A stretch of DNA of 64,000 nucleotides from Ideonella livida. Its GTDB lineage: Bacteria > Pseudomonadota > Gammaproteobacteria > Burkholderiales > Burkholderiaceae_C. The notes under the pieces are model-generated. The model had not been told where the DNA came from and did no database searches. It was given only the letters and a program-made list of their open reading frames with translations. The stretch lies in NCBI RefSeq assembly GCF_010499455.1, contig NZ_JAAGOH010000013.1:62001-126000 (forward strand). The letters run 5' to 3'. The position numbers were made by a program, and so were the translations under genes. How positions within the stretch are numbered: position 1 is the first letter of the stretch; the number at the start of each line of letters is the position of its first letter. This document shows positions 1-14,477 of this stretch, in pieces.

Positions 1-768
1 GGGCAGGCCATGCTCAAGCGCATCATCGACGGCCGCTGGCTGCAGGCCAATGGCGTGATCGCGCTGCACCCGGCCAACACGGTGGACGACGACGTGATCG
101 AGGTCTACGCCGACGAATCCCGTGAGCAGGTGCTGCTGCGCTGGGCGCCGCTGCGCCAGCAGAACGAACGGCCGGTGGTGGACAGCGTGCCGCGCCCCAA
201 CCGCAGCCTGGCGGACTTCATCGCCCCCAAGGGCGTGCAGCCGGACTACATCGGCCTGTTCGCCGTGACGGCCGGCCTGGGCGCCGAAAAGCGGGCGGCG
301 GAGTTTGAAGCCGCGCACGACGACTATTCGGCCATCTTGCTCAAGGCCCTGGCCGACCGCCTGGCCGAAGCCTTTGCCGAGTGCTTGCACCAGCGTGTGC
401 GCACCGACCTGTGGGGCTATGCCGCGGGTGAGGCGCTGGGCAACGAGGAATTGATCGCCGAGAAGTACCGCGGCATCCGCCCGGCGCCGGGCTACCCCGC
501 CTGCCCCGACCACGGCGTGAAGGCCGGCATGTTCGAGGTGCTGGACGCACCGGCCATCGGCATGGGCCTGACCGAAAGCTGGGCGATGACGCCGGCCGCC
601 AGCGTGAGCGGCTTCTACCTGGCCCACCCGCAGGCGGTCTACTTCAATGTGGGCAAGGTGGACGACGGCCAGGTGGCCGCCTGGGCCGGGGCGCTGGGCT
701 TGCCCTTGGAGGCGGCCCAACGCCGGCTGGTCTCGGTGTACGAGGGCAAGCCGGGCGTCTCGCCGTAA
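1..768 (+). CDS. metH: Cobalamin-dependent methionine synthase, C-terminal part
   Basis: This is the 3' end of a gene whose frame is open from base 1, so the start lies outside the window. The visible part is the MetH activation domain, which binds S-adenosylmethionine and takes part in reductive methylation that rescues oxidised cobalamin. The signature RPAPGYPACPDH (about 155 codons into the window) is the classic AdoMet-binding loop of this domain, and the tail containing a PAVYFNVGK-like segment (QAVYFNVGK) is also typical. The substrate-binding and B12-binding modules would lie upstream. The last 130 bases overlap the 3' end of the convergent kpsS-like gene. Identification is by family motif and is confident; only the activation domain can be judged here. 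Confidence 0.95.
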   Translation, partial: GQAMLKRIIDGRWLQANGVIALHPANTVDDDVIEVYADESREQVLLRWAPLRQQNERPVVDSVPRPNRSLADFIAPKGVQPDYIGLFAVTAGLGAEKRAAEFEAAHDDYSAILLKALADRLAEAFAECLHQRVRTDLWGYAAGEALGNEELIAEKYRGIRPAPGYPACPDHGVKAGMFEVLDAPAIGMGLTESWAMTPAASVSGFYLAHPQAVYFNVGKVDDGQVAAWAGALGLPLEAAQRRLVSVYEGKPGVSP

Positions 769-1934
769 AAGCTGGCGTTGAGCTGGGTCTCCCACACCAG
801 GTAGGCCCGGTAACGGTGGAAGAGGTCCACATCCACCGTGCCGGGGTCCTGCCAGAAGTCGGCCAGCTCGCCGGTGTGCACCAGGCCCGGCACGTCATAG
901 ACCGAGTCGCCCAGGGTGATGACCGGGGTGCGGTGGTAGAGCGACTGCAGGCCGGTGGTGCTGTTGACCGTGACCACGCCCGCCGCATGCTGCAGCAGCG
1001 TGGGCAGGTGCTGGTCGTGCAGGTAGTGCACCCGCCCGGCGATGCCATGCTGGTCAGCCAGGCGCTCGATCAGCTGGCGGTAGTCGTTGTAGGGCCGGTC
1101 CAGGGGATGGTGCTTGAGCACCAGCAGTTTGTCCTGCGGCGCATGGGCGGCAAACGAGTCCATCACATGCTCGATGAACCCGGCCACATGGTCATACGGC
1201 GAGTAGCAGCGGATCTGGCTGTCGTTGTAGACCTGCAGGGGCACCAGGAAGTAGCGCTTGTGTTGGTCGGGCGCCGACAGGTAGGGCAGCATGGCGGCCT
1301 CGGCAAAGTGGTTCTTCCACTTGCGGTAGCCGCCGCGGACCCAGCGCAGGCCTTCGCTGACGGGGCCCAGGTCCCGGTGGTGCTTGTAGTGCGGGTAGGC
1401 CTTGCGGCCGTGACGCTCCGCCCAGGCGTAAGTCATGGAGATGTCGGCCACCACGCTGAACTGCTGGCGCGTGGGACGCGGGGCGGGGATGACCTGCGGC
1501 ACCCAGTCACGGTAGAACTGCGGATCGCGCGGGATGCGCGACTCGGCGTTGACGCCGCCCAGCTCCAGGGTCACATAGTCGGGACGGACGTAACCCTCCT
1601 CGAACACGAAGACGTCAACCTGCCGGGCCCGGGCGCGCTGGATGGCGGTCTCGTGCATCCAGCGGTTCTGACCGAAGAGCACCACGGCGTCGACCGCGTG
1701 GCGCTGCAGCAGTTCGTCCAGGCAATCCCCCCAGGCGGAAGCCGGGTCGCGAAAGTGCGTGACACCCGGGCCGTCGTAGAAGTGGTCGTCGCCGGCATTG
1801 AAGTTGACCTTGTGCACCTGCTGGCCGTGGTCGACCAGCGTGTTGCGCAAGCGCCAGAAGAACGGCCCCATGGGCCCCTGCAGCAGCAGCGTGGAGCTGC
1901 GCGCCAGCAATTGGTCCAGTGAAGTCGGGATCAT
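639..1934 (-). CDS. kpsS: KpsS-like capsule polysaccharide Kdo transferase
   Basis: A 431-residue protein of the Capsule_synth family. KpsS-type enzymes add the first beta-Kdo to a lysophosphatidylglycerol acceptor at the cytoplasmic face, starting the poly-Kdo linker of ABC-dependent (group 2) capsules. Visible family marks are FEEGYVRPDYVTLELGG, LKHHPLDRPYNDY and VNSTTGLQSLYHRTPV followed by YRAYLVWETQLNASFYG. The ATG at 1934 is preferred because residues encoded further upstream are unlike the family, which normally begins with a short leader before an LLLQGPMGPFF-type strand. It lies 254 nt downstream of kpsC on the same strand. Its final 43 codons run antisense to metH, giving an alanine/proline-rich tail probably of no functional weight. 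Confidence 0.85.
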   Translation of the reverse strand: MIPTSLDQLLARSSTLLLQGPMGPFFWRLRNTLVDHGQQVHKVNFNAGDDHFYDGPGVTHFRDPASAWGDCLDELLQRHAVDAVVLFGQNRWMHETAIQRARARQVDVFVFEEGYVRPDYVTLELGGVNAESRIPRDPQFYRDWVPQVIPAPRPTRQQFSVVADISMTYAWAERHGRKAYPHYKHHRDLGPVSEGLRWVRGGYRKWKNHFAEAAMLPYLSAPDQHKRYFLVPLQVYNDSQIRCYSPYDHVAGFIEHVMDSFAAHAPQDKLLVLKHHPLDRPYNDYRQLIERLADQHGIAGRVHYLHDQHLPTLLQHAAGVVTVNSTTGLQSLYHRTPVITLGDSVYDVPGLVHTGELADFWQDPGTVDVDLFHRYRAYLVWETQLNASFYGETPGLPSYTETSRRWAASKGKPSAPAQAATWPSSTLPTLK

Positions 1935-2188
1935 GGCGGTCGGTGGAGGGATGTGGCCGGACGATGAGGGGAGACGACGCGGACCGCGGGCGGACGGACT
2001 CCAAGATCCAAGCAAGTCCTGCGCCCAAATATCCCCGTCGTGGTCTGACGGACTTGCGCCGGTGAATTCACCAGCGCGGCCCGGCATCCGTTGTGTATGA
2101 CGCCAGTCTAGTGCCTTGCCGGCCGACAGGCCTTCCCTCAGTCAAGGGTCTGGCCGACCACGCCCAGACAAGGGACAAGCGGCCACCG
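1935..2188 (-). promoter_or_regulatory. kpsC-kpsS intergenic region with a 22-bp palindrome
   Basis: This 254-nt gap separates kpsC from kpsS, which are usually adjacent or overlapping. No credible gene lies in it. At 2056-2077 is a near-perfect 22-bp palindrome: a perfect core GGTGAATTCACC (2061-2072), one mismatched pair, then GCGC on each side. It lies about 120 nt upstream of the kpsS start and could be an operator for a separate kpsS promoter. That role is inference; no convincing -35/-10 pair was found. Confidence 0.4.
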
Positions 2189-4228
<2,040 letters not shown>

Positions 4229-4307: not shown

Positions 4308-5084
4308 TCAGAGGCCCCAAGCCGCGAAGTGGGGGTTGTCAAAGCCCGGCTTGCCGTAGCGCAAGGGGCTGCCGTCGGCCACCACCTGCACCCGGCCGCC
4401 GGCGGCGCGCAGCACGGCGTCACCGGCGGCGATGTCCCACTCCATGGTGCGGCCCAGGCGGGGGTAGACGTCGGCCTCGCCGGCGGCGACCAGACAAAGC
4501 TTGAGCGAGGAGCCCGCATTGGTGCGGGAGGCCACGGCGCGCCCGGCCAGGAAGGCATCGAGCGCGGTCTCGTCGCCATGGGAGCGGCTGGCCACCACCG
4601 TCAGGCCTTGGGCCGGAACAGCGCGGCAGGCGATGGCGCGGCGGCCCTGGGCATCCTCCAGCCAGGCGCCCTGGCCCTGCACGCCGCCAAACAGGCGACC
4701 GATGGCAGGGGCGTAGACCAGCCCGGCCACGGGCACGCCACCTTCAACCAGGGCGATGTTGACGGTGAACTCGCCGTTGCGGCTGATGAACTCCTTGGTG
4801 CCGTCCAACGGGTCCACCAGGAAGAAGCGGTCGGCCACCTCAGGCACCTGGCCTGCGGCCACGGCCTCCTCGGCCACCACCGGGATGCCGGGGGCCAGAC
4901 GGGCCAGCCCCGCCAGGATGACGGCCTCGGCGCGCTGGTCGGCCTGGGTCACCGGGGAGTCGTCGCCCTTGCGGGTGACGTCGAAGTCGGTGGCGTAGAT
5001 GTCCATGATGACCTGACCGGCTTCGCGGATCAGGGGAACCAGGGCGTCAAGCAGTTCGGCCAGATCGTGACGGGATGCACTCAT
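4308..5084 (-). CDS. cysQ: 3'(2'),5'-bisphosphate nucleotidase CysQ
   Basis: A 258-residue inositol-monophosphatase-fold enzyme that converts 3'-phosphoadenosine 5'-phosphate (PAP) to AMP, removing the product left after PAPS is used. The metal-binding motif DPLDGTKEF and the second acidic motif WDIAAGDAVL are present, and AEEAVAAG carries the first acidic pair. TKEF rather than TxxF is typical of CysQ rather than inositol phosphatases. The ATG at 5084 (MSASRHD) is chosen over an upstream TTG. It is divergent from the cysD/cysNC sulfate-activation genes and runs ahead of kpsC, which fits a role in PAP turnover. A single Mg-dependent enzyme in the cytoplasm is expected. Confidence 0.9.
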   Translation of the reverse strand: MSASRHDLAELLDALVPLIREAGQVIMDIYATDFDVTRKGDDSPVTQADQRAEAVILAGLARLAPGIPVVAEEAVAAGQVPEVADRFFLVDPLDGTKEFISRNGEFTVNIALVEGGVPVAGLVYAPAIGRLFGGVQGQGAWLEDAQGRRAIACRAVPAQGLTVVASRSHGDETALDAFLAGRAVASRTNAGSSLKLCLVAAGEADVYPRLGRTMEWDIAAGDAVLRAAGGRVQVVADGSPLRYGKPGFDNPHFAAWGL

Positions 5085-5170
5085 GACGGGGTGGGCTCTC
5101 AAGGTGGGGATGCGCGATTGTGCAAGCCGCGTGGCAGAATTTCGCTCCCTAAAAGTTTTATTGTCTCAAC
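5085..5170. promoter_or_regulatory. Divergent cysQ / cysD-unit promoter region
   Basis: This 86-nt gap must hold the promoters for the cysQ-kpsC-kpsS side and the sulfate-activation side. It contains a local AT-rich stretch, CCCTAAAAGTTTTATTGTC (5147-5165), and a -10-like CAGAAT (5135-5140) facing the cysD side. No good -35 hexamer or recognisable CysB site could be assigned by eye. The role follows from position. Confidence 0.4.
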
Positions 5171-7066
5171 TTGTCCACCCCGAGCCATCGCACCGTGGAA
5201 GAGCTCAACGCCCGCCGTCGGCGGGCGGTGCAGTTGCGGGTGGATGGGATGAGCCTGAGTCAGATCCACCGCCAGACCGGCCTGAGCGTGCCCACCATCC
5301 TGAAGGCCGTAGAAGCCTTCGAAACCGGCGGCTGGGGCGCCATCGAGGTGGCCGGCCGCGGCCGGCCCAGGGGCCAGGGTCGCGCCCTGGCGCTGGCGCA
5401 GGAGGTGGTGCTGCGGGACTTGGCCCTGGACCCGGCAGGAGCGGTCGACGGCCCGCGCGGCCTGTGGCGCGCCGCCACCCTGCAGGACCTGGCGCAGCGC
5501 CGCTGGCAAACCGCGCTGGAGCCGCGGGCTGCCGCCCGCCTGCTGGAGCGTTGGGGCATGGCGCTGCAGCCGCTGCGCACCCTGGCCAGCCGCCATGGCG
5601 CCGGTGCGGCCTGGTTGGCGCAGGCGTGGCAGGCACCAGAAGCCTCGGGCAAGGCGGCGCCCCTGCATTTGTGGGCCGGCGCCCTGCCCCATCCGGACCG
5701 TCCAGCCCCTGCGGGGGTGCTGGTGGCCGTCAATGCCCGTGGCTCGGTGGCCTGGTGGCCGGTGGCCTCGCTGCAGCAGGTGGAGGGCTACCAGGCTTTC
5801 CTGGGCCGGCTGCTGGCCGACCACCCGGAACAGCCGCTGCGGCTGCACCTGCATGGCCCCGACTTCAGCCGCGTGCCGGCCATGATGCAGTGGCTGCAGG
5901 CCCATCCGCAATTGCAGTGCCGCCCCGGTCCGGTGGCGCCGGCACGCCGCATGGCGCCAGAGCCGCGCCCGACGCCGCCCGCCACCGCGGCGGGCGCGAC
6001 GGCAAACCCTTCGCCGGCGGCCGCCACCGCGGCGGCGCCACCGTCTCTGCGTGCGCCGGCGGCCGGCGCCGCGTCCGCGCCTGCCGGCGCTCCGCCCGCC
6101 GCCCGCCCAGCGCAGGCTCCGGTCTCCCTCTCTCACCCCTTCCTTCACCCCAGAACGGACATCCCCATGAACCTCACCCACCTGCAGCGGCTGGAAGCCG
6201 AGAGCATCCACATCATGCGCGAGGTCGTCGCCGAGGCCGACAACCCGGTGATGCTGTACTCCATCGGCAAGGATTCGGCGGTGATGCTGCACCTGGCGCG
6301 CAAGGCCTTCTACCCGGCCCCGCCGCCCTTCCCCCTGCTGCACGTGGACACCACCTGGAAGTTCCGGGCGATGTACGAGATGCGCGACCGCATGGCCAAG
6401 GAGATCGGGATGGACCTGCTGGTCTATCACAACCCGGAAGCCCAGGAGATGGGCATCAACCCCTTCGACCACGGCTCGCAGATCCACACCGACATGTGGA
6501 AGACCCAGGGCCTGAAGCAGGCGCTGGACAAGTACAACTTTGACGTGGCCTTCGGCGGCGCCCGCCGCGACGAGGAGAAGAGCCGCGCCAAGGAGCGCAT
6601 CTTCTCGTTCCGCAGCGCGCAGCACCGCTGGGACCCGAAGAACCAGCGCCCGGAGCTGTGGAAGCTCTACAACGGCCGCAAGCAGAAGGGCGAGTCGATC
6701 CGCTGCTTCCCGATCTCCAACTGGACTGAGCTGGACATCTGGCAATACATCTACCTGGAGAACATCCCCATCGTGCCGCTGTACATGGCGGCAGAGCGCC
6801 CGGTGGTGGACCGCGACGGCACGCTGATCATGGTGGACGACGAGCGCTTCCCGCTGCGCCAGGGTGAAGTGCCGATGATGAAGAGCGTGCGCTTCCGCAC
6901 CCTGGGCTGCTACCCGCTGTCTGGCGCCGTGGAGTCCACGGCCAGCACCCTCAAGGACATCATCCAGGAGATGCTGCTGACCAAGACCTCCGAGCGCCAG
7001 GGCCGCATGATCGACCACGACAGCGCCGCCTCCATGGAGAAGAAGAAGCAAGAGGGCTATTTCTGA
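5171..7066 (+). CDS. IS630-transposase-like segment continuous with CysD (possible fusion)
   Basis: A single frame of 631 codons starts at a TTG (5171; GTG at 5195 is an alternative, and an in-frame TAA lies at 5150). Residues 10-55 form a helix-turn-helix ([19 protein letters not shown]). Residues 56-140 contain a GRGRP linker and a winged-helix region ([23 protein letters not shown]) in IS630 order. Residues 165-255 resemble a decayed DDE domain: [19 protein letters not shown] then [11 protein letters not shown] matches the IS630 pattern, but the expected Asp/Glu residues are absent (HLHG, HLWAG). Residues 256-332 are Ala/Pro-rich. CysD begins at residue 333 with no stop between. Whether a fused protein is made, or cysD initiates separately at 6167, cannot be read from sequence. 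No terminal inverted repeats were found. Confidence 0.6.
6167..7066 (+). CDS. cysD: Sulfate adenylyltransferase subunit 2
   Basis: A 299-residue PP-loop adenylyltransferase that, with the CysN GTPase, makes adenosine 5'-phosphosulfate from sulfate and ATP. The ATP-binding [11 protein letters not shown] motif is at residues 32-42, and [17 protein letters not shown] and the C-terminal SERQGRMID are strongly conserved. From this ATG the length matches typical CysD (about 300 residues), and the first residues ([15 protein letters not shown]) align with the normal N-terminus, so initiation here would give a standard enzyme. The upstream Shine-Dalgarno is poor. The frame is open far upstream into a transposase-like segment. 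Followed after 115 nt by cysNC. Confidence 0.95.
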
Positions 7067-7093
7067 CGGCCCCCACGCTCCCTGCCGGTCGCT

Positions 7094-7139
7094 GCCCCCC
7101 GAGGGGGCTCGCGCAGCGGACCGGCAAAGCCGGATCCGC
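7094..7139. repeat. Two tandem hairpins between cysD and cysNC
   Basis: Two inverted repeats sit side by side in the 115-nt gap. The first (7094-7108) is GCCCCC-CGA-GGGGGC. The second (7116-7139) has arms GCGGACCGGC and GCCGGATCCGC around AAA, with one bulged base. Neither is followed by a T tract, so they look like an mRNA processing or stability element, or an intergenic repeat, rather than a simple terminator. The GC-rich CCCCCCGAGGGGG core is a type of intergenic element I recall from related genomes; only one copy was noticed here. Confidence 0.5.
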
Positions 7140-7181
7140 GCACGCCACTTGACTGAACACCCCAATTCCTAAGGAATCAAC

Positions 7182-9086
7182 ATGGCCCACGTTTCGGACC
7201 TGATTTCCACCGACATCGAGCAGTACCTCAAGCAGCACGAGAAGAAGAGCCTGCTGCGCTTCATCACCTGCGGTTCGGTGGACGACGGCAAGTCCACCGT
7301 CATCGGCCGCCTGCTGTACGAATCGAAGATGCTCTTCGAGGACCAGCTGGCCGCCATCGAGAACGACTCCAAGAAGTGGGGCACCCAGGGCGGTGACATC
7401 GACTTCGCGCTGCTGGTGGACGGCCTGGCGGCCGAGCGCGAGCAGGGCATCACCATCGATGTGGCCTACCGCTTCTTCAGCACCGACCGCCGCAAGTTCA
7501 TCGTGGCCGACACCCCGGGCCACGAGCAGTACACGCGCAACATGATCACCGGCGCCTCCACCGCCGATGTGGCCGTGATCCTGATCGACGCGCGCAAGGG
7601 CGTGCTGACCCAGACCCGCCGCCACAGCTACCTGGTGAGCCTGATCGGCATCCGCAAGGTGGTGCTGGCCATCAACAAGATGGACCTGGTGAACTTCTCG
7701 CAGGAGACGTTCAACAAGATCAACGAGGAATACCGCGCCTTTGCCAAGCAGATCGGCCTGGAGGACATCACCTCCATCCCGCTGTCGGGCCTCAAGGGCG
7801 ACAACATGACCGAGCCCAGCGTCAACACCCCGTGGTACCACGGCCCGACGCTGATGGGATTCCTGGAAACCTGCGAGATCGACGAGACCCGTCTGCAGGG
7901 CCTGCCCTTCCGCCTGCCGGTGCAGTGGGTCAACCGCCCGAACCTGGACTTCCGCGGCTTCTGCGGCCAGATCGCCAGCGGCTCCATCAAGCCGGGCGAC
8001 CGCATCCGTGCCCAGCCCTCGGGCCAGGAAAGCACCGTCACCCGCATCGTGGACATGCGGGGCGACCTGGAGCAGGCGGTGGCCGGCCAGAGCGTGACCA
8101 TCACGCTGGCCGACGAGATCGACATCTCGCGCGGCAACGTCATCTCCACGGCCGACAGCCCGGCCGAAGTGGCCGACCAGTTCGAGGCCACCGTGGTCTG
8201 GATGACCGACGAGCCCATGCTGCCGGGCCGGCCCTACCTGCTCAAGATCGGCACCCAGACCGTCTCGGCCACGGTGACCGAGCCCAAGTACAAGGTCAAC
8301 GTCAACACGATGGAGCATCTTGCAGCCAAGCAGCTGGAGATGAACGAGATCGGCGTGGTCAACCTGGCCCTGGACCGTCCCATCGCCTTTGACCCCTACA
8401 ACGTCAACCGTGACACCGGCGGCTTCATCCTCATCAACCGCCTGACCAACAACACGGTGGGCGCGGGCATGATGCACTTCGCCCTGCGCCGCTCGCACAA
8501 CATCCACCTGCAGCATGTGGATGTGAACAAGCAGGCCCGCGCCCTGGCCAAGGGCCAGAAGCCGGGCGTGCTGTGGTTCACCGGCCTGTCGGGCGCGGGC
8601 AAGTCCACCATCGCCAACCTGGTCGAGAAGAAGCTGCACGCGCTGGGCCGCCACACCTACCTGCTCGATGGCGACAACGTGCGCCACGGCCTGAACAAGG
8701 ACCTGGGCTTCACCGAGGCCGACCGCGTGGAGAACATCCGCCGCGTGGCCGAGGTGGCACGCCTGATGGTGGATGCCGGCCTGCTGGTCATCACCGCCTT
8801 CATCAGCCCGTTCCGCTCCGAGCGCGCCATGGCCCGCAGCCTGATGGCCGAGGGTGAATTCATCGAGGTGCATGTGGACACCCCGCTGGAAGTGGCCGAG
8901 GACCGCGACGTCAAGGGCCTCTACAAGAAGGCGCGCCGCGGCGAGATCGCCAACTTCACCGGCATCTCCAGCCCCTACGAGGCGCCCGAGGCCCCGGAGC
9001 TGCGCGTGAACACCACGACCTGCTCGGCGGACCAGGCCGCCGACGAGGTCATCGCCAAGCTGCGCCAGCTGGGCATGATCGACTGA
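7182..9086 (+). CDS. cysNC: Bifunctional sulfate adenylyltransferase GTPase / APS kinase
   Basis: A 634-residue fusion of the CysN GTPase (residues 1-450) with an APS kinase (residues 460-634), as in NodQ. CysN couples GTP hydrolysis to APS synthesis by CysD; the kinase phosphorylates APS to PAPS. The GTPase P-loop GSVDDGKST is at 31-39, [12 protein letters not shown] near 110 and NKMD near 165. The kinase P-loop GLSGAGKST is at 468-476, followed by [17 protein letters not shown] and [16 protein letters not shown]-like AAGGA precedes the start. Presence of the kinase module means this organism can make PAPS, which is needed for PAPS-dependent reduction or sulfation. Probably in one unit with cysD and the downstream permease. 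Confidence 0.95.
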
Positions 9087-9136
9087 AGCCGGCCGCCGGC
9101 CGGCTCACCCCGCGCCGGTGCCTGCCGATGTGCCTG

Positions 9137-9160
9137 ACGGGGTCCGCTTGCGGACCCCGT
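9137..9160 (+). terminator. Perfect 11-bp stem hairpin between cysNC and permease
   Basis: Arms ACGGGGTCCGC and GCGGACCCCGT enclose only TT. No U-run follows, so it is a weak candidate for factor-independent termination but could pause polymerase or protect an upstream mRNA end. A second GC-only palindrome (GCCGGCCGCCGGCCGGC) sits 30 nt upstream. Confidence 0.45.
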
Positions 9161-9231
9161 CGTCCATGTGCCGGCCGCGCGGCCTCCCGGCCACGACCGA
9201 CGCCCCTTCCTCACGCCCACCCCACGACCCC

Positions 9232-10965
9232 ATGACACTGGCCCAGATCATCGTGTTCGCCAGCCTGGCCTGGCTGATCGTCGAACTCATCCGCGACAAG
9301 CGGTCACCCGGCGCGCTGTTCGCCGGCGTGGCCTTCCTGTACCTCATGCTGGACTACATCAGCATGAAGGACGCACTGCGGCAGTTCACCAACAACGGGC
9401 TGATCACGGTGGTCGTGTTGCTGCTGCTGACCATCGTGCTGGACAAGTCCCGCATGCTGGAGCTGATGGCCGACAAGCTGGTGCGCGGCCCCTACCGCTG
9501 GGCGCTGATCAAGCTCTATGGCGCCACCGCGCTGTACTCGGCCTTTCTCAACAACACGGCGGTGGTGGCCTCGCTGATCGGGCCGCTCAAGGGCAACCGC
9601 GAGCACAGCGCCTCGCGCCTGCTCATGCCCATGTGCTTTGCCGCCTCGCTGGGCGGCATCCTGACCCTGGTGGGCACCAGCACCAACCTGCTGGTCAACA
9701 GCCTGCTGGCAGGGCGCAAGATGCCTGAACTGCAACTGTTCGACCTCTTCCCAGTGGGCATCCTGATCGTGCTGGCCTGCGGCGCGGTGATGGTGCTGCT
9801 GTACCCCCGGCTGCTCAAGGCCCAGCCGCCGGCCGAGGAAGCGGTGAGCGACTACTTCCTGGAGGCGCACGTCCAGCCCGACTGCCCCCTGATCGGCAAG
9901 ACCATCGAAGAAGTGGGCCTGCGCAACCTGGGCCACCTGTTCCTGACCGAAGTGGTGCGCGGCGACTACGTCATCGCGCCGGTGGAGCCCGACCGCTTCG
10001 TCAACGCCGGCGACATCCTGGTCTTCTCCGGCGACGTCACGCGGGTGGACCTGCTGGCCCGCTTTGCCGGGCTGAAGATCCATGCGCACCATGACGAACT
10101 GCCCATGGACAACCTGGTGGAGGTGGTCATCGCCGCGGGCTCCTCGCTGGCGCGCCGCACCATCCGCGAGGTGGACTTCCGCTCGCACTTTGACGCTGCC
10201 GTCATCGCCGTGCGCCGGGGCGCCCAGCGCCTGGGCGGCTCCATCGGCAACACCCGCCTGGAGGTGGGAGACGCCCTGGTGCTGGTGGTGGGCCAGGACT
10301 TCGAGAAGCGCAACAACCTCAGCCGCAACTTCGTCATCGTCAGCCGGCGGGAGGTGCAGAAGTTCGTCAACCCGCGCAAAGGCCTGTACTCGATGCTGGG
10401 CTTCATCGCTGTCATCGCCCTGTCGGCCTTCGAGGTGGTGGACTTCCTCAAGGGCATGATGCTGCTGCTGGCCATCTTCCTGGCCACCGGCCTGGCCCGG
10501 GTGGCCGACCTGCGACGCAACGTGCCTTGGGAACTGATCATGATCATCGCCTCCTCGCTGGTGATCTCCGAGGTCATGATCAACACCGGGGTGGCCAAGC
10601 TCATGGCCAGCGGCCTGCTGGGCGGGGCCGAGCAGTTCGGCCCCTACGGCGCCCTGGCCATCCTGCTGCTGGTCACCTGGATCCTGACCGAGCTGATGAG
10701 CAACAACGCCGCGGCGGCCCTGGCCTTCCCGGTGGCCCTGGGGGTGGCCGACCAGCTCGGGCTCTCGCCCATGCCCTTCATCATGGCCGTGCTCTACGGG
10801 GCCAGCTGCAGCTTCATCACGCCCTACGGCTACCAGACCAACCTCATGATCCAGGCCCCGGGCCGCTACACCCTGGGCGACTTCGTGCGCACCGGCCTGC
10901 CCATCGCGCTGGTGTTCAACGCCGTGGCCCTGGTGGCCATCCCGGTGTTCTTCCCCTTCCGCTGA
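9232..10965 (+). CDS. SLC13/DASS-type permease with TrkA-C domains, probable sulfate transporter
   Basis: A 577-residue integral membrane protein. Hydrophobic helices fill residues 1-200 and 370-577. Between them, residues about 205-350 form two soluble TrkA-C (RCK_C) modules, with LIGKTIEEVGLRNLGHLFL and a DIL-V-FSGD pattern. The family motifs NNTAVVASLIGPLK, GTSTNLLVNSLL and the mirrored SNNAAAALAFPVALG, ITPYGYQTNLM are present. Proteins of this architecture move divalent anions such as sulfate, coupled to Na+ or H+. Its place right after cysD-cysNC is the reason for proposing sulfate; the substrate cannot be read from sequence. ATG at 9232 is chosen because upstream codons are unlike a membrane N-terminus. 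Confidence 0.85.
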   Translation: MTLAQIIVFASLAWLIVELIRDKRSPGALFAGVAFLYLMLDYISMKDALRQFTNNGLITVVVLLLLTIVLDKSRMLELMADKLVRGPYRWALIKLYGATALYSAFLNNTAVVASLIGPLKGNREHSASRLLMPMCFAASLGGILTLVGTSTNLLVNSLLAGRKMPELQLFDLFPVGILIVLACGAVMVLLYPRLLKAQPPAEEAVSDYFLEAHVQPDCPLIGKTIEEVGLRNLGHLFLTEVVRGDYVIAPVEPDRFVNAGDILVFSGDVTRVDLLARFAGLKIHAHHDELPMDNLVEVVIAAGSSLARRTIREVDFRSHFDAAVIAVRRGAQRLGGSIGNTRLEVGDALVLVVGQDFEKRNNLSRNFVIVSRREVQKFVNPRKGLYSMLGFIAVIALSAFEVVDFLKGMMLLLAIFLATGLARVADLRRNVPWELIMIIASSLVISEVMINTGVAKLMASGLLGGAEQFGPYGALAILLLVTWILTELMSNNAAAALAFPVALGVADQLGLSPMPFIMAVLYGASCSFITPYGYQTNLMIQAPGRYTLGDFVRTGLPIALVFNAVALVAIPVFFPFR

Positions 10966-10988: not shown

Positions 10989-11109
10989 CCGCGCCCCCTG
11001 CAGGCCCCTCAAGTCGGCGGGCGGCCGGGCCGATAGCCCGGCAGCAGCCCCAGAGCACGCGCACGGCGCGTTCCCCCTTTTGGCCCATGGGCTGCACGGA
11101 GTGCCGCCC

Positions 11110-12957
11110 ATGAGACCCCTGCCCCCGCCCCGCCCCCACCGCTGGTGGCCCGACCGCATCGCCTGGCGCCACCTGCTCGCCGGCCTGAGCCTGGGCACCG
11201 TCACCCTGCTGGTGGCCTGCGGCGGCGGCGAGGCCGATCCCGCAGCCGGCGCCACGGACACGACCCAGCAGGCCGCAGCCCTCCGGGCCCGCGCCCTGGC
11301 CGCGGCCACCAGCGGCGACAGCGTCAACCCCACCAGCCGGGAAGACGCCTGGCGTCTGCTCACCCAGGCCAGCTTCGGCCCCACCGAAGCGGAGATTCAG
11401 CAGGTCATGGCCCTGGGGCCGGCGGCCTGGATCCAGGCGCAGCGCGCCCTGCCGGTGCGCGAGGTTCACTTGGCCCGCTGGCTGGCCGACGACGCCGCGG
11501 TCAAGGCCATCAACCCGCGCGCCTCGGCGGATGTGCCCCACCTGCTGGCCTCTTTCTATGAAGAGGCGCTGACCGGCGAGGACCAGTTGCGCCAGCGCGT
11601 GGCCTTCGCGCTCTCGCAGATCCTGGTGGTCTCCACCACCGAGATGCACAACGAGTGGACCGAGGCCGTGGCCGGCTGGCAGGACATGCTGACCCGCAAC
11701 GCCCTGGGCAACTTCCGGCAGCTGCTGGGCGAGGTGACCCGGCACCCGGCCATGGGCCGCTACCTCTCGCATCTGGACAACCGGGGCGAGAACAGCGCCT
11801 CCGGGCGCGCCCCGGACCAGAACTTCGCCCGCGAGCTGATGCAGCTCTTCACCATCGGCCTGGTGGAGCTGCAGCCCGACGGCAGCCCGCGCCTGGATGC
11901 GGAAGGCCAGGCGGTGGAGACCTATGACGTGGACGACATCGTCGGCCTGTCCCGGGTCATGACCGGCTATGGCTTTGCCGGCACCCAGCCCAGCGCCCGC
12001 CGCCCCTCAGACCCCGGCCACCGCTACCTGCCGGGCAAGCTGCACCTGCCCATGCAGGCCTACCCCGGCCTGCACAGCACCGCCGAAAAGCGCCTGCTGG
12101 GCCAGCGCGTGGGCCCGGCCGGCGGACGCCAGGTGCAGGTGGAGGTGGACCGCGCGCTGGACATGCTGTTCCAGCACCCCAACGTGGGCCCCTTCATCAG
12201 CCGCCAGCTCATCCAGCGCCTGGTGACCAGCCACCCCAGTCCGGCCTACGTGGCCCGGGTGGCCGCCGTCTTCGCCGACAACGGCCAGGGCGTGCGCGGT
12301 GACCTGGGCGCCACGGTGCGCGCCATCCTGCTGGACCCCGATGCCCGCAGCGCCAGCCGCGCCCAGGACCGCACCCAGGGCAAGGTGCGCGAGCCCGTGC
12401 TGCGCCTGACCGCCGCCCTGCGCGGCCTGGGCGCCACCAGCCGCAGCGGCCGTTGGGACATCGGCATCACCGACTCGCCGCTGCGCGGCCTGGGCCAGAC
12501 CCCGTTGCGCGCCGCCACCGTCTTCAACTACTGGCGGCCGCACTACGTGCCCCCCGGCGGTGAGGCGCAGCAGCGCGGCCAGCACCTGCCCGAGATGCAG
12601 CTCACCGACGAGGCCAGCGTGGCCGGCTACGTGAACTACATGAGCGACCTGGTGGCCAGCGGCCTGGGCCCGGTGGGGACCGATGGCCAGCGGACCATCC
12701 AGCTGCCCGTCGCGCCCTGGGGGGCCCTGGCAACCGATCCCGGCGCCCTGGTGGACGCCCTGGGCCAGGTGCTGCTGGGCGCCGCCCCGCCCAGCGGCCT
12801 GCGCGAGCCGGTGGTGCAGGCCCTGCAGAGCGTGCGCCTGCCGGCCCTGGCCCGCGATGGCAGCAACCGCGCCACGGTGGAGGCCGCCCGGCTGCGCCGG
12901 GTGCAGCTGGCCCAGCTGCTGCTGCTGGCCAGCCCGGAATTCATCGTCCAGAAGTGA
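11110..12957 (+). CDS. DUF1800 family exported lipoprotein
   Basis: A 615-residue protein of the DUF1800 family. No enzymatic role is established to my knowledge. From the ATG at 11110 there is a basic n-region, a hydrophobic stretch and a lipobox LLVAC (Cys37), then GGGEADP, so an outer-membrane-directed lipoprotein is expected. Family marks include AWRLLTQASFGPTEAEI near the N-terminus, QLRQRVAFALSQILVVS, DQNFARELMQLFTIGL and the C-terminal LLLLASPEFIVQK. The next gene, a DUF1501 protein, starts 20 nt downstream; the two families are habitual neighbours, so a joint exported function is inferred. Alternative upstream starts would spoil the signal peptide. Confidence 0.85.
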   Translation: MRPLPPPRPHRWWPDRIAWRHLLAGLSLGTVTLLVACGGGEADPAAGATDTTQQAAALRARALAAATSGDSVNPTSREDAWRLLTQASFGPTEAEIQQVMALGPAAWIQAQRALPVREVHLARWLADDAAVKAINPRASADVPHLLASFYEEALTGEDQLRQRVAFALSQILVVSTTEMHNEWTEAVAGWQDMLTRNALGNFRQLLGEVTRHPAMGRYLSHLDNRGENSASGRAPDQNFARELMQLFTIGLVELQPDGSPRLDAEGQAVETYDVDDIVGLSRVMTGYGFAGTQPSARRPSDPGHRYLPGKLHLPMQAYPGLHSTAEKRLLGQRVGPAGGRQVQVEVDRALDMLFQHPNVGPFISRQLIQRLVTSHPSPAYVARVAAVFADNGQGVRGDLGATVRAILLDPDARSASRAQDRTQGKVREPVLRLTAALRGLGATSRSGRWDIGITDSPLRGLGQTPLRAATVFNYWRPHYVPPGGEAQQRGQHLPEMQLTDEASVAGYVNYMSDLVASGLGPVGTDGQRTIQLPVAPWGALATDPGALVDALGQVLLGAAPPSGLREPVVQALQSVRLPALARDGSNRATVEAARLRRVQLAQLLLLASPEFIVQK

Positions 12958-12977
12958 CCGCCCGCCCGAGGACCGCC

Positions 12978-14477
12978 ATGACCGCCGACCACTCCCTGCC
13001 ACTGCGCCGCCGTGACTGGCTGCACGCCGCCGGCGCCCTGGGCCTGCTGCCGCTGACGCTGGGCCTGTCCCAGCGCGCACGCGCCAGCGGCACCGACGAC
13101 TACCGCGCCCTGATCTGCATCTTCCTGCAGGGCGGCAACGACGCTTTCAACACCGTGCTGGCCACCGACGCCCCGTCCTGGCAGGCCTACCAGACCGCCC
13201 GCGCGGCCAGCGAGGGCGATGTACGCCTGCTGGCGCCGGGCCAGGCCCCGCAGACCGGGGCGGCCAGCCTGCACGCCCGCCTGGGTGGTGTGCTGCCCAT
13301 CCGCCCGCGCACCGCCCACACCGGGCGCAACTTTGCCCTGCACCCCTGCCTGCGCGAGGCCGCCAGCCTGTTCCAACAAGGCCGGCTGGGCATCGTGGCC
13401 AACTTGGGCGCGGTGGTGGGCCCCACCTCCAAGGCCGACTGGCTGGCCGGGCGGGTGCCGCGCCCGCCGCGCCTGTTCTCGCACAACGACCAGCAAGCCT
13501 TCTGGCAGACCTTGGCTCCCGAGGGCGCACAGCCTGGCTGGGGCGGCCGCCTGGTGGAGCGCGCCGGCGCCGGCGTGCATGCCCTGGCCGCGGTGTCCAC
13601 CGCCGGCCGCTGGGCCTGGACACAGGGCGACAGCGTCACCGGCTACCAGATGCCCGGCGCCACCCCGGTGGCCGTGGGCAGCGGCGGGCGCCTGCTGGGC
13701 TCGGCGGCTGCCCAGCAGACGCTGCAGGAGCTGATGCGCCGCAGCCGCAGCGGTCACCTGATCGAGCAGGAGCACGCCGCCGTGGCCGACCGCTCGCTGC
13801 GCGCTGAGGCCTGGCTGCGCCAGGCCCTGCCCGCCCCCGACGCGGGCCCCTGGGGCAGCGTGGCCACCGGCCGCCCCGACCCCCTGCTGCGCTGGACCAG
13901 CCCGGTCAGCGGCACCGTGGCCACCAATCCGATTGCAGCGCAATTGCAGACCGTGGCCCGCTTCATCGCCGCCCGCCAGACGCTGGGCGTGGGTCGGCAG
14001 GTGTTCTTTGTCGGCCTCAACGGCTTTGACACCCACGCCCAGCAGGCTGAGCGCCATGCCGACCTGCTGGCCCAGTTGGACCACGCCCTGGCCTATCTGG
14101 ACCGCACCCTGCAGGCCATGGGGGTGGACCGCCAGGTGACCACCTTCACCGCCAGCGACTTTGGCCGCACCCTGGCCAGCAACGGCAACGGCACCGACCA
14201 CGGCTGGGGCGGACATGCCCTGGTGATGGGCGGATCGGTTCGTGGCGGCGAGATTCACGGCCGCTTCCCCCGCTACGGCCTGCCACTGGCCAGCGGCGAC
14301 TTCGACAGCGAGGACCTGTGGCGCGGTGGCGTCATGATCCCCTCGCTGGGGCTGGAGCCCTTCATCGCCACGCTGGGCCGCTGGCTGGGCGTGCCGGAGG
14401 CGGAGCTGCCGGCAATGCTGCCGCAGCTGGCACGCTGGCCGGCGGCACAGCAGTTGCTGGACCTGTGGAGCGCTTGA
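12978..14477 (+). CDS. DUF1501 family Tat-exported protein
   Basis: A 499-residue DUF1501 protein. The N-terminus has a twin-arginine type signal (LRRRDWLHAAGALGLLPL) and a likely cleavage after ARA near residue 37. LICIFLQGGNDAFNTV, FALHPCLREAASLFQQGRLGIVANLG and TASDFGRTLASNGNGTDHGWGGH are typical of the family, which has a sulfatase/alkaline-phosphatase-like fold; the last segment holds probable metal ligands. Function is not established. ATG at 12978 is preferred to a GTG overlapping the previous stop because GAGGA (12968-12972) is correctly spaced before it. Tat export would suggest folding or cofactor loading before transport. Confidence 0.85.
   Translation: MTADHSLPLRRRDWLHAAGALGLLPLTLGLSQRARASGTDDYRALICIFLQGGNDAFNTVLATDAPSWQAYQTARAASEGDVRLLAPGQAPQTGAASLHARLGGVLPIRPRTAHTGRNFALHPCLREAASLFQQGRLGIVANLGAVVGPTSKADWLAGRVPRPPRLFSHNDQQAFWQTLAPEGAQPGWGGRLVERAGAGVHALAAVSTAGRWAWTQGDSVTGYQMPGATPVAVGSGGRLLGSAAAQQTLQELMRRSRSGHLIEQEHAAVADRSLRAEAWLRQALPAPDAGPWGSVATGRPDPLLRWTSPVSGTVATNPIAAQLQTVARFIAARQTLGVGRQVFFVGLNGFDTHAQQAERHADLLAQLDHALAYLDRTLQAMGVDRQVTTFTASDFGRTLASNGNGTDHGWGGHALVMGGSVRGGEIHGRFPRYGLPLASGDFDSEDLWRGGVMIPSLGLEPFIATLGRWLGVPEAELPAMLPQLARWPAAQQLLDLWSA

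Follow-up and report, generated by a model that had tools for sequence, protein, structure and literature searches.

An IS630-type transposase relic fused in frame to the ATP sulfurylase subunit CysD in Ideonella livida, probably as an autoregulatory extension

In the stretch of Ideonella livida DNA analysed here (64,000 nucleotides, referred to as the window), the reading frame of cysD does not begin at the usual CysD methionine: it runs from a TTG codon to the cysD stop (5171-7066, forward strand; 631 aa) with zero internal stops, and 332 residues (332 codons, 5171-6166) precede the CysD Met in the same frame. A preliminary description of the window had read this upstream part as a decayed IS630-type transposase segment, which would now act either as an autoregulator or as an N-terminal extension of CysD. 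The reading of the open frames confirms the 332 stop-free codons and their position. The locus raises the question of where the extension comes from, whether it is a kept part of the gene, which protein is made from the frame, and what a DNA-binding-type domain does in front of an enzyme. The features of the locus are reported in Table 1.

Table 1. Features of the HTH-CysD locus and its neighbours, with positions in the window and the basis of each assignment.
Feature	Position	Strand	Basis
Two capsule polysaccharide genes, kpsS- and kpsC-like	639..4228	-	Pfam Capsule_synth; same neighbours in most Ideonella loci
cysQ-like phosphatase, divergent neighbour	4308..5084	-	Pfam Inositol_P; neighbour kept in Ideonella loci
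O1, ATTGTGC-N10-GCAGAAT, between cysQ and the fusion gene	5117..5140		largely conserved in the 14-locus genus alignment
Proposed operator O2, CCCTAAA-AGT-TTTATTG, outer arms partial	5147..5163		outer-arm symmetry; motif count
HTH-CysD fusion gene, 631 aa, TTG start	5171..7066	+	open frame; in-frame conservation
HTH1, residues 12-70, best-conserved portion of the extension	5204..5380	+	Pfam HTH_29/HTH_28; low dN/dS; invariant columns across lineages
Winged helix, residues 71-145	5381..5605	+	HTH_33 (below cut-off); IS630 profile to residue 137; model helices
RNase-H-like DDE relic, residues 146-262	5606..5956	+	profile alignment; structure model; fold match
Ala/Pro-rich linker, residues 263-332	5957..6166	+	composition; without confident predicted structure; dN/dS
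CysD, ATP sulfurylase small subunit	6167..7066	+	CysD models; sole CysD found in the genome
Presumed CysNC, downstream partner (APS kinase fused to the GTPase subunit)	7182..9086	+	sequence; synteny
SLC13/CitMHS-type permease, possible sulfate importer	9118..10965	+	Pfam CitMHS, TrkA_C, Na_sulph_symp

The profile search against IS630 and HTH families, which had been suggested as a check, finds matches of HTH_29, HTH_28 and NF033545 to the extension. With residues 1-332 as query, Pfam HTH_29 is found at residues 16-68 (E 1.7e-6), above its curated cut-off; HTH_28 is also above cut-off with this query, and just below with the full 631-residue one (HTH_29/HTH_28 region, 15-68), while the winged-helix model HTH_33, at residues 96-133, stays below. 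NF033545, the NCBIfam IS630 model, covers residues 15-137 (E 3.3e-10; the score of 39.9 bits falls short of the cut-off of 100 set for whole proteins). From residue 333 the CysD models score 490-546 bits over a full-length domain, where the SIGKDS motif is retained. The described order, HTH and winged helix as in IS630, then an Ala/Pro-rich linker, is thus borne out by Pfam, the IS630 profile and composition. The G+C-rich window holds many long frames on both strands: one of them, an antisense frame of 688 residues (5099-7165, minus strand), overlaps the fusion gene and is taken as an artefact.

The origin of the extension was evaluated by profile-profile comparison of an 18-sequence extension alignment with five IS630 transposases from other genomes: 264 columns are aligned (99.9%, E 4.4e-31, 24% identity). 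The AlphaFold model of residues 1-269 is confident (mean pLDDT 89.6): it shows the helices of two HTH units, and its strands and helices follow one another in a sequence resembling RNase H folds; in the full-length model the CysD half is poor and the linker has no confident structure. Among PDB structures, the Mos1 mariner transposase matches best (E 2.6e-4, probability 0.98), at a TM-score of only 0.24, perhaps lowered by a differing orientation of the modelled domains; retroviral integrase cores are among the next matches. By alignment and best fold match, derivation from an IS630-type transposase, as first proposed, is shown. One branch (SH-aLRT 94) separates 20 cysD-linked proteins from the five IS630 transposases in a tree from which 11 further candidate loci were left out.

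Of the catalytic columns, defined as those invariant in the five IS630 transposases, the first Asp (D178 of the first transposase) corresponds to a gap in the window protein, or to Gly170 by hhalign; the second (D256) corresponds to His228, with His in 12 of the 14 genus rows; locus L052 still has Asp at this position. The third, Glu (E293), is E264 in the window (nt 5960-5962), just behind residues 146-262; it is not retained in every other lineage. Part of the first DDE block is also absent, so that the D, D, E set is incomplete in a domain that retains the RNase-H-like fold. The preliminary description had this region lacking its acidic residues, which holds for both Asp but not for the Glu position, kept in 13 of the 14 genus rows. 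Because both catalytic Asp, not all acids, are gone, the domain should be catalytically inactive.

Within its own genome, the extension protein used as query gives a single match at E <= 1, and the profile finds one more weak IS630-like fragment (E 5e-11). Inverted repeats within 5050-6300 consist of 11 G+C-rich imperfect pairs, none clearly flanking the segment. A second IS630-like HTH and winged helix occurs in another genome (G014), in a 473-residue frame (L019:1348-2766, plus strand; the L019 contig is also that of L126); the remainder of this frame has no obvious DDE motif by eye, and it is possibly another domestication.

The segment is present in 14 of the 15 other Ideonella genomes, in 13 of them at 44-53% identity and in G002 as a C-terminal piece only. 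The CysD search, run on 16 Ideonella genomes, reports one CysD in each of 15; the remaining genome, G009, has neither CysD nor the segment. In all 15 cysD genes the segment continues stop-free into CysD, with linkers of varying length: comparison of the locus in relatives, also suggested at the outset, hence finds the segment conserved and a stop between it and cysD in 0 of 15. In G002 about 112 residues are joined to CysD behind unrelated sequence and the HTH end is lost, an arrangement that may be an assembly fault. A sequencing error masking a stop was considered and rejected, as independent assemblies carry the same fusion.

Selection was estimated in seven close pairs that overlap in part. 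HTH1 has a dN/dS of 0.00-0.20, the winged helix 0.05-0.41, the relic 0.18-0.43 and CysD 0.03-0.10; for the linker it is 0.40-0.83 in six pairs, the seventh being unchanged. In two deep pairs with the window, values are higher, likely by saturation: 0.29-0.36 for HTH1, 0.64-0.69 for winged helix and relic, 0.31-0.82 for the linker and 0.11-0.17 for CysD. The dN/dS check of the segment thus gives values below 1 in every computable region. These rates indicate strong purifying selection on HTH1, the most constrained part of the extension; as judged by them and by the alignments, the fusion is shown to be conserved and under purifying selection. Conservation in relatives and purifying selection support a domesticated transposase, as had been proposed, and the conservation contradicts the label "decayed".

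Outside Ideonella, two of 44 genomes matched the segment, both at transposase-like loci. A contig scan with the single protein gave no matches; with an alignment as query it gave 18 loci, 16 of which are fused and of betaproteobacterial type: 11 are from genomes already counted, and five are new (L029-L032, L034), from Scleromatobacter humisilvae and MAGs. The remaining two are from Marinomonas: one is fused in frame, and in Marinomonas pollencensis a separate 290-residue gene lies directly upstream of cysD. Overall, two loci encode the relic protein apart from CysD, in a gene of its own immediately upstream. A plasmid search gave no match. One MAG, SH_71_45, has two different HTH-CysD fusions on two contigs (L030, L031), by presence of two species in the bin or by duplication.

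A survey of the class (369 genomes) gave 11 genomes with a profile match at E <= 1e-15. Six are linked to cysD, fused in the own genome, G217, G421, G412 and G317, separate and adjacent in G423; the other five have no cysD within the fetched flank. CysD itself is found at E <= 1e-60 in 63 of the same 369 genomes. In the order (399 genomes), 28 matches at E <= 1e-10 include three fused to cysD (own genome, G606, G666); the other loci read are unfused, and the eight matches without a locus fall outside this reading. Genome G217 contains, along with its fused CysD, a very similar unfused CysD (L083, L042).

A second genus, the gammaproteobacterial one of G317, features the fusion throughout: CysD is found in 24 of 27 genomes, and an HTH precedes it in frame in all 24 genes (the 24th being L204). 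Extensions are long in 22 of them; the other two (G317, L197) have HTH1 and a short linker only. G+C is 0.47-0.60 over 23 of these loci, and chance frames of 580-670 residues are therefore unlikely there. For the Ideonella locus, high G+C and the many long frames on both strands might suggest a chance open frame, or a decaying transposon in frame by accident. Profile homology, conservation, selection and the fusions of the G317 genus, at lower G+C, speak against either, whose probability we consider practically negligible; both were rejected.

In-frame fusions also occur in single genomes of other groups, and where parts of the extension have been lost (L046/L091, L197), the HTH is the part that remains. 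In a CysD tree of 54 rows, drawn from fetched loci only and with unfused genes undersampled, every one of the 29 rows that have an extension, or a regulator-like gene next to cysD, groups in a single branch of 34 rows (SH-aLRT 91), which also holds five unfused rows. One old association followed by losses would agree with this, as far as the branching tells. There is about an even chance, in our judgement, that a single old capture of an IS630 element by cysD gave rise to a self-regulating enzyme, with a single gene providing operator, repressor and ATP sulfurylase subunit, and that this gene became the CysD of whole beta- and gammaproteobacterial genera and a module moving between lineages, of which the intermediates (separate gene, full fusion, HTH only) persist.

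A different N-terminal extension of CysD, of about 190-200 residues, is found in G061 and G119 (L092:2392-2997, minus strand; L096:943-1503, plus strand). Its similarity to the transposase relic is limited to a weak resemblance in strand order (hhalign E 0.003, probability 10.6%). In the family of G061, CysD is present in 46 of 57 genomes; the G061 frame, of 511 residues, is the longest, against 300-372 for all others listed, which points to transfer of a longer gene into G061.

Which protein is made, the fusion or plain CysD, was evaluated from the start codons available. In the G317 genus, the 14 codons that precede the conserved start of CysD contain an ATG in 0 of 23 genes, a GTG or TTG in eight, and none of the three in 15. 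Because these 15 genes have no start near the usual CysD start, the fusion is most likely the enzyme in this genus; more generally, the codons suggest that in lineages of this kind the fusion itself would be the enzyme. The extension continues in frame into all cysD genes read from the two genera, as it does in several other lineages, where no start codon stands at the native CysD start, which upholds the proposed "N-terminal extension of CysD". No clear signal of an internal ribosome site before CysD is found in Ideonella or in the G317 genus.

Alternatively, the frame might yield two proteins: full-length HTH-CysD, a regulator made rarely from a weak first start codon, and plain CysD, made abundantly from a start inside the gene. 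In Ideonella, the fusion starts are GTG, TTG or ATG, with ribosome-site pairing weak overall (over 14 loci, -1.1 kcal/mol or weaker in eight, -3.0 to -5.7 in six), and all 15 genes retain the CysD ATG, preceded by a weak block of purines (-3.2 to -8.8 kcal/mol); yet mean pairing at this ATG, -4.3 kcal/mol, equals that of control positions (-4.0). In the G317 genus some ATG lies within 45 codons upstream in 20 of the 23 genes, many at -20 to -26, best pairing is slightly stronger on average than in controls (-3.8 vs -3.0), the eight GTG or TTG codons are near the native start, and in L204 a Met stands 10 residues ahead of that start; against this stand the 15 genes without a start within 14 codons and the three without any such ATG, L189 having no start codon at all within 45. 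The loci with the different extension are divided in the same way, L092 with an ATG 11 codons before CysD, L096 with no start codon in the 20 codons shown. We give two products an appreciable, clearly minor probability; for Ideonella, a single fusion product and two products are both possible.

The own genome was also searched for a second CysD or a Sat-type ATP sulfurylase, and none was found. The one other PAPS_reduct match belongs to a gene of its own, probably cysH. The fused gene is thereby shown, at the level of these searches, to be the only CysD found in the genome.

Two palindromes, O1 and O2, lie upstream of the fusion. A genome-wide search for an O1 regulon gives no second site at 0-1 mismatches: O1 is the sole such place in 5.26 Mb. 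O2 reads CACTAAA-N3-TTTAGTG in Scleromatobacter and related MAGs, some of which have outer arms like AATCG/CGATT. Over 14 loci, hand-picked as non-redundant, the symmetry of its outer arms (offsets 6-17, inner part excluded) is 0.50 vs 0.25 (sd 0.05) at other centres, ranking 1 of 301; in the 10 Ideonella loci alone it is 0.39, rank 2 of 301, behind the O1 centre. The sequence TAAANNNTTTA occurs once in the 64-kb window, at O2 (0 of 100 shuffles; 0.00 expected).

A reduced motif, TAAA-N2-4-TTTA, picked after inspection of the sequences, is present upstream in 12 of 23 G317-genus loci vs 0.97 expected (relatedness uncorrected): at -60 to -64 in eight of the 12, elsewhere in the 120-nt stretch in four. 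Among seven loci from further groups it occurs in two (0.26 expected, P 0.02); the strict motif is absent from the remaining 11 and five loci, respectively. In the upstream regions of unfused cysD genes, the closest unfused relatives read included, it is found in 0 of 15. Inverted repeats of other sequence lie upstream in Marinomonas, TTATAGG...CCTATAA (L037 2900-3080) and GATTGAGAT...ATCTCAATC (L038 5930-6000), and could be the operator of that genus.

O2 could instead be a -10 box or promoter element, or the site of another regulator; a consensus scan upstream of the fusion gives no match to a sigma-70 promoter. CysB controls cys operons in enterics. The palindromes would then belong to such a LysR-type regulator, or to the promoter, which must be here in any case, and the HTH would do something else. 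The motif missing before 15 of 15 unfused cysD genes argues against this explanation, which we regard as unlikely.

The reading that we favour, with fair though not high confidence, is that the 631-residue protein is a domesticated IS630-type transposase joined through a linker to an ordinary CysD, and that it represses the operon by binding the palindromes through its HTH and winged helix, in response to the state of its CysD part. Probably as a dimer, these domains would occupy one or more palindromes between cysQ and HTH-cysD; the bound protein would repress or tune its own operon, while the CysD part would work with CysNC. Whether the CysD part has substrate, or is assembled with CysNC, could determine DNA binding, and enzyme left free of CysNC would thereby shut down its own gene. 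A DNA-binding-type domain and an intact CysD domain share one reading frame, as in autoregulatory (trigger-type) enzymes, and HTH-CysD probably autoregulates the operon, a role to which the palindromes conserved in front of the gene lend indirect support. The two roles first set as alternatives, autoregulator and N-terminal extension of CysD, are not exclusive.

The extension might also be selected for a non-regulatory role, as a scaffold between CysD and CysNC, a tether of the enzyme to DNA, or an aid to assembly or solubility. Such a role could account for a relic kept in most lineages at the low dN/dS of the close pairs, for the retention of E264 in all but one genus row, and for the different extension of L092 and L096. 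It does not agree with the HTH staying when other parts are lost, with HTH1 being the most constrained portion, or with palindromes that precede the fusions and are absent before the 15 unfused genes; we consider it quite improbable.

In most Ideonella loci, kpsS, kpsC and cysQ are on one strand and HTH-cysD and cysNC, with the permease in part of the loci, on the other. A DUF1800-DUF1501 gene pair lies downstream in the window (11080-14477). The association resembles the capsule clusters of Cobetia marina, where cysNC, cysD, cysQ and a sulfate permease are found with kpsSC, for PAPS supply; in the accessible part of that article, "helix-turn-helix" is absent from the text (PMC11766843). Here, unlike in those sulfation clusters, no sulfotransferase is found among the 14 neighbouring proteins scanned. 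By analogy, the module may supply PAPS and, because no other CysD was found, in Ideonella may also give APS for cysteine.

The proposed autoregulation would be a local control of sulfate activation, hidden by annotation with CysD models alone. With separate, fused and shortened forms in living relatives, the evolution of an enzyme into a regulator by capture of a DNA-binding domain becomes directly testable, while the enzyme remains the only CysD found in the cell.

To our knowledge, few DNA-binding proteins built on a transposase are known in bacteria, and few enzymes carry their own DNA-binding domain; PutA, BirA and NadR are enzyme-regulator fusions of this kind. Domesticated transposases acting as DNA-binding proteins are, in the excerpts available, well documented in eukaryotes. 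For prokaryotes, the accessible part of a text on recruited mobile elements lists phage- and antitoxin-derived regulators, with no mention there of IS630 or sulfate (PMC8987985). CysD is mentioned in PMC10853773 and PMC11641403, whose available sections describe no such fusion, and no report of a CysD-HTH or CysD-transposase fusion was found in the open-licence PMC literature.

The protein shares with IS630 transposases (NF033545; Tc1/mariner superfamily) the order of HTH, winged helix and RNase-H-like domain, and the Glu of the DDE triad; it differs in the missing catalytic Asp pair and part of the first DDE block, in being single-copy and joined to a metabolic enzyme, and, unlike a mobile IS630 element, in having the same neighbourhood in relatives. 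Like ordinary CysD (TIGR02039), it matches the model over its full length, well above cut-off, with SIGKDS kept, but carries a 332-residue extension with a DNA-binding-type domain. A further comparison is with BzdR, where, according to the part of the source available, an HTH is likewise joined to an enzyme-like domain, a shikimate-kinase-like one that has lost its activity (PMC3602430). Here, in contrast, no CysD other than the fused enzyme was found, and the DNA-binding part derives from a transposase, with its presumably inactive catalytic domain still attached.
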